Below are positions 23,993 through 28,598 of a stretch of 45,772 bases of DNA, one piece after another. Origin of the DNA: Phaeospirillum sp. Its GTDB lineage: Bacteria > Pseudomonadota > Alphaproteobacteria > Rhodospirillales > Magnetospirillaceae. The number at the start of each line of letters is the position of its first letter. The first letter of the stretch is position 1. Made by a program: the position numbers and the translations under genes. The notes below the pieces were generated by a model. The model searched no databases. It saw only the letters and a program-made list of their open reading frames with translations, and was not told where the DNA came from. The DNA lies in contig JAVBXM010000019.1 of the NCBI GenBank assembly GCA_030824585.1, positions 1 through 45,772 on the forward strand. The letters are read 5' to 3'.

Positions 23993-24582
23993 GAGGTCCC
24001 AGCACGCCGCTCTCCGTGGAAATCCGCGACGCCACCGACGACGACATGGCGGCGGTGCAGTCCATCTATTCCTTCTATGTGTCGCGCAGCGCCGCCTCCT
24101 TCGAGGAAGAGGTGCCCTCCGTCGAGGAGATGAAGGCCCGCCGCGCCGCCATCACGGCGCGCGGCCTGCCGTTTCTGGTGGCGGTGGAGGAGGGCGAAGT
24201 GCTCGGCTACACCTATGCCGGACCGTTCCGTCAGCGCTCGGCCTATCGCTATACGGTGGAGGATTCCATCTACGTGGCGCCCTTCGTGGCGCGCCGGGGT
24301 ATCGGCCGCACATTGCTGGCCGCCTTGATCGAACGCTGTACCGAACTGGGCTACCGCCAGATGATCGCGGTGATCGGCGATTCCGCCAATCAGGGCTCCA
24401 TCGGCGTGCACCGCAGCCTGGGCTTCGGCCAGGAAGGGGTCTTGCGCGGGGTGGGTCTGAAATTCGGCCGCTGGGTGGATGTGGTGATCATGCACCGGAC
24501 CTTGGGCGGCGACGACCGGCCGCTGCCCGACGGCACCAAGGCGCCGCCCATGCTGTCCTCCTCGGACCCCGAGATTCCCTAG
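23989..24582 (+). CDS. GNAT N-acetyltransferase, phosphinothricin-acetyltransferase-like
   Basis: 197 residues. The N-terminus IRDATDDDMAAVQSIYSFYVSRSAASFEEE is typical of the Pat/Bar/MddA branch of GNAT enzymes. The acetyl-CoA loop is YVAPFVARRGIGRTLLAALIERC near 98-120, followed by MIAVIGDSANQGSIGVHRSLGF and GRWVDVVIMHRTLG. Members acetylate amino-acid analogues such as phosphinothricin or methionine sulfoximine. It is coupled to the amidohydrolase gene by an ATGA overlap, so the two may act on related N-acylated amino acids. Its stop overlaps the stop of the convergent regulator within CTAG. Confidence 0.9.
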   Translation: MRGPSTPLSVEIRDATDDDMAAVQSIYSFYVSRSAASFEEEVPSVEEMKARRAAITARGLPFLVAVEEGEVLGYTYAGPFRQRSAYRYTVEDSIYVAPFVARRGIGRTLLAALIERCTELGYRQMIAVIGDSANQGSIGVHRSLGFGQEGVLRGVGLKFGRWVDVVIMHRTLGGDDRPLPDGTKAPPMLSSSDPEIP

Positions 24583-25550
24583 GCCTCGACGGCGGGAAGC
24601 CCCAGGACCAGCTTCACCAGTTCCGCCTGGCGCGCCGTGCCGGTCTTGGCGAAGACCTGCTTGAGGTAGGTGCGCGCCGTCGACACCGTGATCTCGGACA
24701 GGCCGGCGGCTTCCTCCACCGAGTGGCCGAGGGCCAGGGAATGGGCAAGGCGCGCCTCCGAGGGCGTGAGGTCGAGCAGCCGGGCCAGTTGCTCCACCGG
24801 AACCAGGGGCAGGTCGTCGGGATCGCTGATGTAGAGGGCGGCGCTTGGTCCGCCGGCGGCCGGTGGCCTGGGCAGCGGGCCGATCAGCACCGAAAGGGGG
24901 CGCTTCAGCGACGGGCGGGAGATGGACAGCGCCGCCGTTCCGCCGCCGGCCAGGGTTTCCGCCACGGCCCGGTGAAGGCTGGCCGTTTCGGCGGGGAATG
25001 CGGTCCGGACCTGCCGCCCGCCGTCCAGGGACAGCCCGTCCTCGGCGGCGCACAGGGCGGCGCCGCGCCGGTTCATGAACAGGGCGTGGCCGGTTGCGTC
25101 CACCACGATCACGCCCACCGGCAGGCGGTCGAGGGCGGCCTCGCCCATGGAGGGCGGCTGCCCGGGCGGGGGGCGGCCGGCCAGGGCCTCGGCGATGCCC
25201 TCGGCCAGCAGGAAGGCCGGGCAGGGCTTGGTGAAGAAGCGGAACATGTCGGCACGGTTGATGGCGTCGATGGCGGTACGCAAATCGGCGGTGCCGGTCA
25301 GCATGATGTAGGCGGTGTCTGGTGCCGTCCGGCGCATGGCCACCACCATGTCGATGCCGGTCATGCCCGGCATCGACATGTCCGAGACCACGACGTCGAA
25401 GGGGTGGGCCCGCATGGCCGCCAGCCCGGCCGCCGGGTCGGAGACGAACTCCATCTCCCAGCGCTCCTCATGCCTGTGCATGCCGCGCCGCAATCCCTGG
25501 AGGACACGGGCCTCGTCGTCGACAAACAGGATGCGCGGCTTGGCAGGCAT
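24579..25550 (-). CDS. Response regulator, REC - PAS-like - LuxR HTH
   Basis: 323 residues. The receiver at the N-terminus has FVDDEARV, phosphoacceptor Asp57 (VVSDMSMPGM), a Thr in MLTGTAD and Lys in FTKP near 108. The centre (about 140-240) starts DRLPVGVIVVDATGHALFMNRRG, a PAS-like opening. The C-terminal LuxR-type helix-turn-helix is DLTPSEARLAHSLALGHSVEEAAGLSEITVSTARTYLKQVFAKTG. This order is unusual but known. It is 58 bp downstream of a histidine kinase on the same strand, its probable partner. It is a transcription factor of unknown regulon. Confidence 0.9.
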   Translation of the reverse strand: MPAKPRILFVDDEARVLQGLRRGMHRHEERWEMEFVSDPAAGLAAMRAHPFDVVVSDMSMPGMTGIDMVVAMRRTAPDTAYIMLTGTADLRTAIDAINRADMFRFFTKPCPAFLLAEGIAEALAGRPPPGQPPSMGEAALDRLPVGVIVVDATGHALFMNRRGAALCAAEDGLSLDGGRQVRTAFPAETASLHRAVAETLAGGGTAALSISRPSLKRPLSVLIGPLPRPPAAGGPSAALYISDPDDLPLVPVEQLARLLDLTPSEARLAHSLALGHSVEEAAGLSEITVSTARTYLKQVFAKTGTARQAELVKLVLGLPAVEA

Positions 25551-25608
25551 GGTCGGCCCCGAACGCTTTCCCCCCGAGTATGGGGAGCGATCCGGCTGTC
25601 CGCAACCG

Positions 25609-27102
25609 TCAGGCCAGAGGGAGGCGCAGGGTGAAGGCGGTGCCGCCGGTGGGGCCGCTCTCGACGGTGATGGTGCCGCCGTGCAGGTCGACGATCCGTT
25701 TGACCAGGTACAGGCCCAGTCCCACGCCGCAGACCCGGTCGGTCTTGATGGAGCGGTAGTACTTCTCGAAGATCCTGTCGCGCTCGCTGGCCGGTATTCC
25801 CGGCCCCCGGTCGCGGACGGTGATTTCGGCCCGGCCGGCTTGCCGGCCCATGGTCACGCCGACCGGGCTGCCGGCGGGAGAGAATTTCAGCGCATTGTCG
25901 ACGATGTTGGAAATGGCGATGGCCAGCAGGTTGCGGTCGCCGGCCACCAGCACGCCGGGCTCGATGTCCATGTCCAGGGGGCGGGAGGCGGCCGAGAACT
26001 GGTCGGCCAGACAGGTTTCCTCCACCAGGGCGCCCAGGTCGAACCGCGTGGCGTCCAGCGGGCTGGCCGGCGAGTCCAGGCGCTCCTCGTTGAGGTATTC
26101 GTTGATCAGGTTCGACATCCGTCCGAGGGCGCGGTGAATCTTCGCCACCTCGTCGGCAAGCTCGCCATTGTCGCGGCCATAGATGGCGATGAGCTGGGTG
26201 GCCCCGGCGATGGTGGAAAGGGGGCCGCGGAACTCGTGGGAGACCATGGACAGGAAGTTCCTTTGTTCCCCCATGGACCGCAGGACCGCCTCGGCGGCCT
26301 CCTCGGCCTTCCTGGTGCTCTCCTCCAACTGGGCGGTCTTTTGCCGCACCCGCGCATCCAGTTCCTGGTTGGCCGATTGCAGGTCGGCCTTGGCCGTCTT
26401 CATGCCGCTGATGGCCTGGCTCAGCCGGGAGGCCATGTCCGAGAAACTGTCCTTCAGGGCGTCGATCTCGTCGCCGGGCGGGGTGCCGCGCGGCTTGGGT
26501 TCGGCCGCGGCCGGGTGCCCCAGGTCGTCGAGCACGCCCTGGACCTCATGCTTGAGCGGCGTCAGGCGGCTGGTTACCAGCACGTGGATCAGCCAGCCCA
26601 TGAACCCGGCCACCAGGAAGGTCTTGACCGCGTTGCCGAACAGAATCTCGGCGGTCAGGGTGAAGACTGCCACATAGATGGCGTCGATGCTGGCGACCAC
26701 GTCCAAGGTGCCCAGGCTCTGCCGGCCGGTGCTGGTCTGGCGTTCCAGGGTGAACGTCCGGCTGATGGAGTGGGCCGAGCGCAGGCGCCCCTGGGACCAC
26801 ACTTTTCCTTCCGGGGTGGCGATGGCGGCTTCCTGAACGTAGGGCATACTGGTCAGGGCCTGCAGCGCCAGGCTGATCTGCGCCTCGTTGAACGTCCAGA
26901 CGCTTTCGGCGATGGAGGGCAGCAGGACGTCGATCCCATCCAATTGCTGCTCCACCGCCGACCGGCGGCCGGCGAACTCGCTGGTCAGTTGGAGGACGCT
27001 GATGATCAGGGTGATCACCGAGCTGAAGACGATGGTGTAAAGGATGATGCGCCGCCCCAGCGGGCGGGCATGGTTTCGTTTGAGAGCGTCGTATGGGGGC
27101 AT
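25609..27102 (-). CDS. Membrane sensor histidine kinase
   Basis: 497 residues from ATG 27102; a TTG two codons earlier is possible. N-terminal transmembrane helix about 18-40, a periplasmic domain of about 125 residues (AESVWTFNEAQISLALQALTSMPYV, as in sensor domains with a WxFN motif), a second helix near 180-200, a HAMP-like linker with DEIDALKDSFSDMA, a coiled coil about 235-280, then H-box FLSMVSHEFRGPLSTI (His289), N-box NIVDNALKFSP, G1 DRGPGIP, F-box IFEKYYR and G2 GVGLGLYLVKRIV. The LuxR-type regulator follows on the same strand. Ligand unknown. Confidence 0.92.
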   Translation of the reverse strand: MPPYDALKRNHARPLGRRIILYTIVFSSVITLIISVLQLTSEFAGRRSAVEQQLDGIDVLLPSIAESVWTFNEAQISLALQALTSMPYVQEAAIATPEGKVWSQGRLRSAHSISRTFTLERQTSTGRQSLGTLDVVASIDAIYVAVFTLTAEILFGNAVKTFLVAGFMGWLIHVLVTSRLTPLKHEVQGVLDDLGHPAAAEPKPRGTPPGDEIDALKDSFSDMASRLSQAISGMKTAKADLQSANQELDARVRQKTAQLEESTRKAEEAAEAVLRSMGEQRNFLSMVSHEFRGPLSTIAGATQLIAIYGRDNGELADEVAKIHRALGRMSNLINEYLNEERLDSPASPLDATRFDLGALVEETCLADQFSAASRPLDMDIEPGVLVAGDRNLLAIAISNIVDNALKFSPAGSPVGVTMGRQAGRAEITVRDRGPGIPASERDRIFEKYYRSIKTDRVCGVGLGLYLVKRIVDLHGGTITVESGPTGGTAFTLRLPLA

Positions 27103-27205
27103 CTTCAAACGTGGCTCTTGGTCGCGGTGGCCGATGGGGGACTAAGTCTATGGATATATACCAGAGATGCGGTTTCGGCGCCCAGCCCTTGAAAGCCAGA
27201 AAAAA

Positions 27206-27243
27206 AGCCGCTGGGTTGCCCCAGCGGCTTGAGTTTAGGGAGG
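27206..27243. repeat. Direct repeat, left copy (38 bp), contains a terminator hairpin
   Basis: Identical to 28477-28514. It contains AGCCGCTGGG and CCCAGCGGCT, a perfect 10-bp stem with a TTGC loop. In the minus direction the stem is followed by a run of seven T (plus-strand A run 27200-27206), making a textbook terminator that would end transcription of the 28249-27335 gene before the kinase. Confidence 0.9.
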
Positions 27244-27304
27244 TTGTTTGTGGGGGCTGTCAACCCATTGAACCCATTGATTTCATCTGTTTAATGGGGC
27301 TGTG

Positions 27305-27328
27305 TGTGGGGCAGAATGTGGGGCAGAA
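27305..27328. repeat. Two tandem TGTGGGGCAGAA 12-mers (left)
   Basis: Perfect tandem copies at 27305-27316 and 27317-27328, immediately after the C-terminal end of the inserted gene. Related copies flank the other side (28399-28422). A short AACCCATTG direct duplication lies nearby at 27262-27279. Confidence 0.85.
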
Positions 27329-27334
27329 CCAGTG

Positions 27335-28249
27335 TTACGGTTTGGCCTTATCTGCTTCGATTAACATCAAAATCGTTGCCGCAGTTTGGTGCAGAACGTA
27401 GCTGGCGAGATACGGAGGCACGTCCTTAATGTCGCCGCCTTGGCCATGTGCCGCCTTCTTGTTTCGTGGTGTTGGGATGCCACTTTCCAGCATGGAGCGG
27501 AGAGAGGTGAAGTGGGCCTGCCAATATTTTTCGACAAGCTCGTTGTCGAGAATCACGTCGATAAGCTTCTTTGCCGGATCGGTTGGGGTGTAAGCCCATT
27601 GACGTTTGTCACAAATGATCTTCATCGTGCTTTCAAATGATTTGGCACAATCGGTTAGGCATTCCTTGTATTTTCCATCCCGATAATGGTCGTGAGCACT
27701 AAGAAACTCGGCGTTTGCCCCGGAAAATCTTGGGTCTCTCAATAGAGTTAATGCTGGCTTGACGGCTTCCGCATGGAGAATCTCAGAATCTATGCGAATA
27801 ATTTTCTCAGATTCATATTGATACCCAACTCCAGATTCTTTGAATCTTATGTTCAGCTCGTTAATTGCATTGTCAGCATGCTGCGTGCGGCGATCATAGT
27901 AAGTGACGTGTCGTATTTTTTTATCGATAAGATAAAATATTATCTCTATAGCACTTAATGACTGTTCTATGTCTTTCTCATTCAGAAAATATTCCGTAAA
28001 CTCAGCCTCACCGTCTTGATAAATGTTATTGTTTAAATTGAACACGCCGTTCTCTTGTCTGAGTAAGTTGACGGCGGCACTGTAGGCCATCAGGTGTTGG
28101 CTGTTGACCGACGATCCGTCGATGGCCGAGCGGTATATGTGCACGATCTGAGTTTTGAGTTTTTTTGGTAGATCATCATAAACATATACGTCGGGCATCT
28201 CGCCCCTGAGACGGCGTTGGCGTTTTGTGTATGTTTCCCAAACGACCAT
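27335..28249 (-). CDS. STM4504/CBY_0614 family protein with Abi-like C-terminal region
   Basis: 304 residues beginning MVVWETYTKRQRRLRGEMPDVYVYDDLPKKLKTQIVHI, which I recognise as the start typical of the STM4504/CBY_0614 family; the identification is from memory. The C-terminal third (YKECLTDCAKSFESTMKIICDKRQW, then KKLIDVIL and RNKKAAHGQGG...YVLHQTAATILMLIEA) resembles the abortive-infection C-terminal (HEPN-like) helical domain, with RNKKAAHG in the position of the R-x4-6-H motif. It may be a defence gene, but this is not established. ATG 28249 has GGGAGACC upstream. Base composition is much more AT-rich than neighbours, which points to recent transfer. Confidence 0.75.
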   Translation of the reverse strand: MVVWETYTKRQRRLRGEMPDVYVYDDLPKKLKTQIVHIYRSAIDGSSVNSQHLMAYSAAVNLLRQENGVFNLNNNIYQDGEAEFTEYFLNEKDIEQSLSAIEIIFYLIDKKIRHVTYYDRRTQHADNAINELNIRFKESGVGYQYESEKIIRIDSEILHAEAVKPALTLLRDPRFSGANAEFLSAHDHYRDGKYKECLTDCAKSFESTMKIICDKRQWAYTPTDPAKKLIDVILDNELVEKYWQAHFTSLRSMLESGIPTPRNKKAAHGQGGDIKDVPPYLASYVLHQTAATILMLIEADKAKP

Positions 28250-28378
28250 CTCAGGTCTCCCTGCTTTAAAATCGAAGCTTTCCGCAAAATAGCTCGTAAA
28301 AATAGACTTGGTAAAGTGGGTGTGGGGGGAGGTTTAGGCTCCAAGAGGGGAAGATCGTAACGCACACCTACATCGTTG

Positions 28379-28397
28379 AAAAATATATAATATTTTT
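28379..28397. repeat. AT-only hairpin
   Basis: AAAAATAT (28379-28386) and ATATTTTT (28390-28397) form a perfect 8-bp stem with a 3-nt loop, directly abutting the right-hand TGTGGGG repeats. Confidence 0.8.
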
Positions 28398-28398
28398 A

Positions 28399-28422
28399 TG
28401 TGGGGTAGAATGTGGGGCAGTT
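28399..28422. repeat. Two imperfect TGTGGGG 12-mers (right)
   Basis: TGTGGGGTAGAA (28399-28410) and TGTGGGGCAGTT (28411-28422), tandem and in the same orientation as the perfect pair at 27305-27328. Confidence 0.8.
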
Positions 28423-28476
28423 GGTGCATTTTTGGCGTCGTTCAATTCCTGGCTAACTCATTGAAAACAAAAAGAG

Positions 28477-28514
28477 AGCCGCTGGGTTGCCCCAGCGGCT
28501 TGAGTTTAGGGAGG
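28477..28514. repeat. Direct repeat, right copy (38 bp)
   Basis: Identical to 27206-27243, including the 10-bp stem. The flank on its left is also A-rich and imperfectly similar (TTGAAA...), extending the similarity to about 57 bp. On the minus strand it would act as a terminator upstream of the inserted gene, insulating it from outside transcription. Confidence 0.9.
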
Positions 28515-28555
28515 AAACGTCCAAGAAAGCAGAAAGGGGTCCGAGGGACTGGCCT

Positions 28556-28598
28556 TTGCTGCAGTGCAATATATATCGGTAGAATTGCTGCGGTGCAA
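28556..28598. promoter_or_regulatory. Paired TTGC-N6-GCAA palindromes
   Basis: TTGCTGCAGTGCAA (28556-28569) and TTGCTGCGGTGCAA (28585-28598) differ by one base and start 29 bp apart, close to three helical turns. They resemble TGC/GCA palindromes bound by PhaR-type regulators of polyhydroxybutyrate genes in alphaproteobacteria (established type, assignment inferred). They lie about 160-200 bp upstream of the transglycosylase. Confidence 0.45.

Follow-up and report, generated by a model that had tools for sequence, protein, structure and literature searches.

The question raised by this stretch of DNA from a genome of the Paramagnetospirillum group (Phaeospirillum sp., contig JAVBXM010000019.1, 45,772 bp, here called the window) is how a single gene came to lie within an AT-rich insert of 1.3 kb, between two identical repeats and with no recombinase beside it. 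The answer that we favour, with a probability of about 0.8, is that the insert is a minimal cis-mobilizable element (CIME) situated between two 3' halves of mmgR, a gene for a small regulatory RNA (sRNA), and that it stems from a class of genomic islands, designated type A, of which both attachment ends have been kept while the integrase has been lost. The insert is likely to be a stripped-down mobile island because of its position at the 3' end of mmgR, its type-A-like ends, the absence of an integrase and the presence of one intact gene.

The repeat pair and its target gene

The boundary repeats are direct, identical and exactly 38 bp long, and their starts are 1271 bp apart (Table 1). An earlier note on this DNA had described them as identical 38-bp repeats, its first coordinate lying one base late. 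A chance repeat can be ruled out, as the 37-bp core, with up to 3 mismatches allowed, occurs just these two times in the whole 4.94-Mb assembly. The foreign composition claimed in the same note was also found, with 45.3% G+C in the insert as opposed to 67.4% in the remaining window, whose lowest 1.2-kb stretch lies inside the insert. So was its content, namely one intact STM4504/CBY_0614-like frame of 304 codons (NCBIfam STM4504_CBY0614, NF046078, 359.7 bits, cut-off 150), with no integrase or transfer genes and no recombinase found between the repeats. Frames of at least 80 amino acids (aa) other than this cargo gene reach at most 102 aa, apart from two longer ones that enter over the right repeat from outside, and none of the four short frames scanned reached a Pfam cut-off (best E 0.19).

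On the minus strand both copies of the repeat form terminator-like hairpins of 11 and 10 pairs (-24.2 and -22.5 kcal/mol, z -4.1 and -5.2). Shuffled sequence has a mean of 1.8 terminator-like sites, so the two in this region are no excess, and their notable feature is stem strength. The T-run is unbroken after the left copy, while CTCTTTTTG follows the right one. The repeat had been called a perfect minus-strand terminator, which the right copy, given its interrupted T-run, is not quite.

Other kinds of small mobile unit were considered and ruled out. The core sites of integron cassettes (attC) read GTTRRRY and RYYYAAC, and these are missing from the 38-bp repeat on either strand. An insertion sequence or a miniature inverted-repeat transposable element (MITE) would have terminal inverted repeats; here the boundary repeats are direct, and the inverted match is the palindromic hairpin itself. 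Phage satellites of the phage-inducible chromosomal island type have their own integrase, regulator and replication genes, and the insert is a single gene.

The identity of the repeat emerges from Rfam. The sRNA mmgR ('suhB', alpha-r8 sRNA, RF00519) is matched across the right repeat, above the gathering score of 41, whereas the left copy scores far lower because it is mmgR-like in its 3' half only. This identifies the repeat as the CCUCCC box plus terminator of mmgR. A full mmgR stands at the right attachment site (attR), beside its own promoter, and a second 3' half at the left one (attL). All 11 loci compared (the window and 10 other genomes of the genus) have the body of mmgR and its upstream region, which in the window are situated on the right-hand side of the insert. 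Within the family RF00519 is matched in 54 of 55 genomes, in 53 of them above the cut-off. The sequence, the terminator and an upstream dyad are shared with the known MmgR/alpha-r8/suhB sRNA (passages of PMC1273637 and PMC8401924). The promoter of mmgR in Sinorhizobium meliloti contains a PhaR site, according to a passage of PMC12542648, and the RNA of that species depends on Hfq, controls storage-polymer proteins and lowers phasin levels (passages of PMC8401924). A role as integration site, which the locus has in the window, is not described in those passages of PMC1273637 and PMC8401924. In the part of the literature covered by our search, we found no report of integration into mmgR/suhB; the terms sRNA, suhB and mmgR do not occur in PMC11476347, on integration hot spots of S. 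meliloti, nor does 'integrase' in PMC1273637, which describes suhB.

Table 1. Features of the insert and of the adjoining mmgR locus (positions in the window)
Feature	Position	Strand	Remarks
Left repeat; attL core, read as the displaced native 3' half of mmgR, terminator hairpin kept	27206..27243	-	RF00519 25.0 bits
Left inner end, homologous to type-A islands (CAACCCATTGAA..CCATTGAT)	27244..27304	.	0/2000 shuffles
Left paired arm-like repeats TGTGGGG, 12-bp period	27305..27326	+	offsets 61, 73, as in G006, G010, G001 islands
Cargo gene, STM4504/CBY_0614 family, AbiJ_NTD4 + DUF7014/Abi_C, predicted HEPN RNase (R262-x5-H268, E206-x3-K210)	27335..28249	-	
Right paired arm-like repeats	28399..28420	+	21/22 bases equal to left pair
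Right inner end, homologous to type-A islands	28421..28476	.	0/2000 shuffles
mmgR sRNA gene, rebuilt across attR	28462..28537	-	RF00519 53.1 bits; matching region in 10 other genus genomes
Right repeat; attR core, read as the 3' half supplied by the island, restores mmgR	28477..28514	-	
Dyad TTGCACTGCAGCAA in mmgR promoter region, resembles PhaR/AniA site of S. meliloti mmgR	28556..28569	-	TTGCA[C/G]TGCA[G/A]CAA in 11/11 loci

Filled sites, their islands and integrases

Occupancy of the site was surveyed in 17 genomes of the genus, that of the window (G000) included, with up to 3 mismatches to the repeat. The repeat is present in 11 of them. Four have a single copy (G005, G007, G012 and G013), in each case a full mmgR of 50.8-59 bits, and these are the one-copy empty sites that the earlier note had proposed to seek. 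Seven have two copies and are filled (G000, G001, G004, G006, G008, G010 and G011), the copies of G001 being on two contigs. The repeat is thus far from occurring only singly, without pairs of empty and filled sites. The six genomes lacking it are uninformative on occupancy; G016, the sole one examined, has an mmgR with another terminator stem. When the flanks of the window were joined via one core and compared with the four empty sites, the right side and the core aligned, followed by only 6-14 bp leftward; no left match was obtained with G005. In the filled genomes G006, G010 and G011, the match to the left flank of the window continues as far as the left repeat and across it.

Other cargo between two copies was also to be looked for according to that note, and it exists: in the five filled genomes with both ends on one contig the copies are 9.0 (G008), 16.5 (G004), 20.5 (G011), 33.4 (G006) and 39.4 kb (G010) apart. 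A tyrosine integrase gene lies just inside the left copy in all six filled genomes other than that of the window, and a sub-threshold mmgR half is found beside each of these integrases (Rfam, 24.8 to 34.1 bits, E 0.0017 to 0.41). The alignment of the six shows R, H-x-x-R and G-G-W residues common to all, which we take to be catalytic. Four were scanned with Pfam, and three of these exceed the PF00589 cut-off, the one from G008 remaining below it (20.4 vs 27.1 bits, E 4.9e-4). The integrases fall into two types with about 30% identity between them: type A, in G001, G006 and G010 (92-99.8% identity among themselves), and type B, in G004, G008 and G011 (56-84%), which has a DUF6538 N-terminus. 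The type-A islands of G006 and G010 have 49% G+C, near the value of the insert.

The inner ends of the insert belong with type A. On both sides, and against each of the three type-A genomes, the alignment score was never reached by dinucleotide-shuffled sequence. Compared with type-B ends, the left end does no better than shuffles and the right end is weaker, its scores being reached by 270, 101 and 18 of 2000 shuffles. Both ends also carry paired GTGGGG repeats (the first repeat of the left pair reads CTGGGG in G001), which probably represent the arm sites of the integrase. The right pair lies at offsets -80/-68 in the window and at -79/-67, 1 bp off, in G006, G010 and G001, which add a third repeat at -55. 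The 21-nt pattern of the paired repeat, TGTGGGGNAGAATGTGGGGCA, with 1 mismatch allowed, occurs in 3 of the 55 family genomes, at 4 places, and only at such ends.

These comparisons bear on two explanations that need no island. Hairpins are known places of rearrangement, and the terminator might have been duplicated by homologous duplication or template switching without any site-specific recombinase; we consider this extremely unlikely, as integrase genes lie just inside the repeat in six of six other filled genomes, and the inner ends in the window match three of them. A purpose-built, insulated defence cassette, in which terminator, gene and terminator form a unit, would agree with the position of the gene between two minus-strand terminator-like hairpins. 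The earlier note had proposed such an undescribed cassette, which as a design is unsupported: the terminators are a duplicated attachment core, one of them is that of the host mmgR, and the same core surrounds 9-39 kb islands with unrelated cargo in five genomes. The filled sites have largely refuted the idea already, and we regard it as very unlikely. The second proposal of that note, integration into a terminator by a tyrosine recombinase, is supported by the data, the terminator being the 3' end of mmgR, with empty and filled sites and with ends like those of integrase-bearing islands.

Several further observations concern the distribution of the parts. A search for type-A integrase at E <= 1e-40 in an even draw of 385 genomes from the class gave no match and is little informative, since the known matching genomes evidently lay outside the draw. 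Type-B integrase is matched at E <= 1e-60 in 4 of the 55 family genomes; the G016 enzyme, with 58% identity to its G008 counterpart, has no mmgR half adjacent to it, so that one of four type-B integrases is not at mmgR. At this locus (L099, G016:C41), which is not beside an mmgR copy, similar CTCACATTTT repeats occur upstream. Directly downstream of the type-B integrase, G004 (L028:5874-8105) and G011 encode a protein of 743-763 aa with SSFSALTPRRIE in common, possibly a partner of the integrase; the G004 copy, the one scanned, had no Pfam or PADLOC match. An exact search with 23 nt of the core, run on one genome per species (84,980 species, records near the genome of the window being possibly excluded), returned two stretches, from P. 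caucaseum SO-1 and a Magnetospirillum metagenome-assembled genome.

The cargo of the sibling islands was sampled by submitting 20 chosen proteins to Pfam and 10 to PADLOC. In G011 the island encodes the R and S subunits of type I restriction as well as a kinase; in G004 there are a Fic protein, a Drt6-like reverse transcriptase and a large protein with matches to type IV restriction models. The reverse transcriptase (493.6 bits by PADLOC) lies next to the type IV restriction match (1393 aa, 396.2 bits) and is divergent to it, the pair being at L028:14286-15824 and L090:7784-11965. The type-B island of G008 has a MobA/MobL relaxase. Among the eight proteins of the G006 type-A island that were given to Pfam there was no relaxase; five belong to signal transduction or to the hemerythrins, and the other three are a DNA methyltransferase, a short integrase and a protein without a match. 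Defence genes are thus present in two of the four sampled sibling islands, and so not in every one.

The left neighbourhood of mmgR is itself variable. In the window, mmgR is separated from a GNAT gene by response-regulator and histidine-kinase genes (24579-27108). Matches to the kinase region occur in G001, G006, G010 and G011; in two of these, G001 and G011, this region comes immediately after the GNAT gene and the response-regulator gene is unmatched. Neither gene is matched in G004 (filled), G007 and G013 (both empty), in which the GNAT gene is the left neighbour and ends 20 to 180 bp from the repeat. This variable content beside mmgR is a further gain or loss at the same spot. In G001 about 5.9 kb of extra sequence separates the kinase-side flank from the left mmgR repeat (L031, G001:C61). 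Immediately outside that repeat, the sequence (AAAAAGAGAGC) is similar to the right inner end in the window, and is perhaps a trace of an earlier insertion.

Origin of the element and its cargo gene

By the reading that we prefer, a type-A integrase would have integrated a circular molecule within the 3' half of mmgR, and the gene would have been rebuilt with a 3' end derived from the circle (GGCTCTCTTTTTG at attR, GGCTTTTTTTC at attL). The native 3' end would thereby have been displaced to the far side, where it may now terminate the transcript of the cargo gene, which would end at this displaced terminator about 0.1 kb beyond the stop codon. The integrase would have been lost subsequently. 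The element itself would have arisen from a type-A island through loss of everything except the ends and one gene, or through capture of a gene between two ends, and it might still be mobile if a type-A integrase were supplied in trans. No close homologue was found as a helper in the genome of the window, where there are 13 PF00589 matches; the sole match to the type-A integrase, on contig C9, is a distant one (34% identity over about 160 aa), at a locus that also has a tRNA.

A single example does not distinguish arrival as a small element from movement in trans or shrinkage in place, and two versions of the preferred reading have to be weighed. According to the first, a large type-A island in mmgR underwent an internal deletion that left an immobile remnant, the cargo being kept by chance or by selection. 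Its cognate integrase was not found in the assembly, no sister one-gene element was found, and all six other filled sites bear an integrase, the five measurable ones being 9-39 kb in size. However, the ends, the arm-like pairs and the exact 38-bp core are intact and the stop codon of the cargo gene is 8 bp from the left arm-like repeat, which is tidy for a random deletion; we give such a fossil not quite an even chance. The second version, a self-standing non-autonomous element that moves in trans between mmgR sites, as a MITE-like unit of tyrosine-recombinase islands, appears rather doubtful to us. The element does have just the parts expected to be needed in cis (core, both arm pairs and conserved spacing) around one gene, but it is a single example, no helper was found in the genome, and in viral contigs the core pattern and the arm pattern gave no match each.

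Three known systems invite comparison. CIMEs are defined in the relevant passages of PMC5704250 by the retention of attL and attR and the absence of integration and transfer genes; the element in the window agrees with this, differing in its size of 1.27 kb, its single gene and the lack of a tandem helper island. At tRNA and tmRNA genes, islands of the Islander type likewise split the target, restore it and leave a displaced fragment at the far end (PMC4383910), whereas the target here is a regulatory sRNA and the core a CCUCCC box plus terminator. The islands at the PrrF1/PrrF2 locus of Pseudomonas aeruginosa, as described in parts of PMC8373256, are also integrase-bearing, at an sRNA locus, and leave the sRNA intact; they lie downstream of the sRNA gene in a tandem sRNA repeat, whereas at mmgR the core that is duplicated is the 3' half of a single sRNA gene, which attR restores.

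The cargo protein is a full-length member of the STM4504/CBY_0614 proteins (AbiJ_NTD4 plus Abi_C). HEPN RNases possess an Rx4-6H motif with a polar residue after the R, and an upstream Ex3[KR] motif (passages of PMC3710099). In the cargo protein the R and N of R262-N-x4-H268 are conserved in 39 of 39 sequences and the H in 38; E206 of the upstream motif is invariant and K210 is conserved in at least 90%. The protein is accordingly predicted, from these motifs, to act in abortive infection as a HEPN ribonuclease, and a role in defence is plausible. A sequence-based search of solved structures gave no relevant match. Relatives are also plasmid-borne, in 339 of 72,556 plasmid records (299 conjugative, 289 from Escherichia); unlike in known members, the gene is the only one of its element in the window. 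Among viral contigs, 17 stretches matched the cargo pattern and none was confirmed. There is no consensus sigma-70 promoter on the minus strand upstream of the gene, and the two sigma-70 sites on the plus strand are no more than in shuffles.

With these results mmgR, a regulatory sRNA gene, is an attachment site of genomic islands on which two integrase types converge, and the one-gene form stands at the small end of the island size range. In some genomes the site gathers defence genes (the predicted HEPN protein in the window, subunits of type I restriction in G011, and in G004 a DRT-like reverse transcriptase together with a type IV restriction match). As an insertion swaps the 3' end of mmgR together with its U-tail, the landing of an island could tune the host regulator as a side effect.

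A second sRNA-like integration site

Two sub-threshold mmgR-like matches in the genome of the window led to a second site. It consists of a 68-bp perfect repeat on contig C138, whose copies are 23.2 kb apart (C138:14728-38040; L100, L101), with a 428-aa integrase just inside the left copy (PF00589, 75.9 bits). This repeat, too, is a CCUCCC box plus terminator. It scores below the gathering values of suhB, SorY, SorX and anti-hemB, and the locus is therefore sRNA-like with no assigned sRNA.

A 33-nt motif of the second site is present in all 17 genus genomes and occurs twice in nine. Each of the nine has one full copy, with the conserved 5' continuation, and one displaced half, while the other eight genomes have one full copy. 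(The script marks the full copy in seven of the nine; in G003 and G009 the continuation is diverged, as it is in the single copy of G002, and was assigned by eye.) In five of the nine both copies share a contig, in the same orientation and at a distance of 8.3 to 23.2 kb. From the behaviour of this site, the mmgR case looks like one example of a habit, and the occurrence of the same behaviour in 9 of 17 genus genomes suggests a rule for islands that tRNA-based finders would miss.

A bolder proposal, which we put forward tentatively and consider unlikely as a whole, is that sRNAs of the CCUCCC type are a recurrent class of bacterial attachment site (attB), whose 3' half would be used by tyrosine integrases and replaced by a new 3' end that often differs in its terminator stem. 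The 1.3-kb element would then be a naturally minimised, trans-mobile defence unit, with its HEPN gene directly downstream of the carbon/nitrogen-controlled mmgR promoter and fed by read-through past an island-supplied terminator with an interrupted U-run (CUCUUUUUG).

At the second site several copy pairs differ in the terminator stem, so that an island often brings another terminator. The eight proteins examined from the C138 island, in the genome of the window only, include an integrase, a DNA methylase, a specificity subunit, a Fic protein, a T5orf172 protein, an encapsulin and a catalase.
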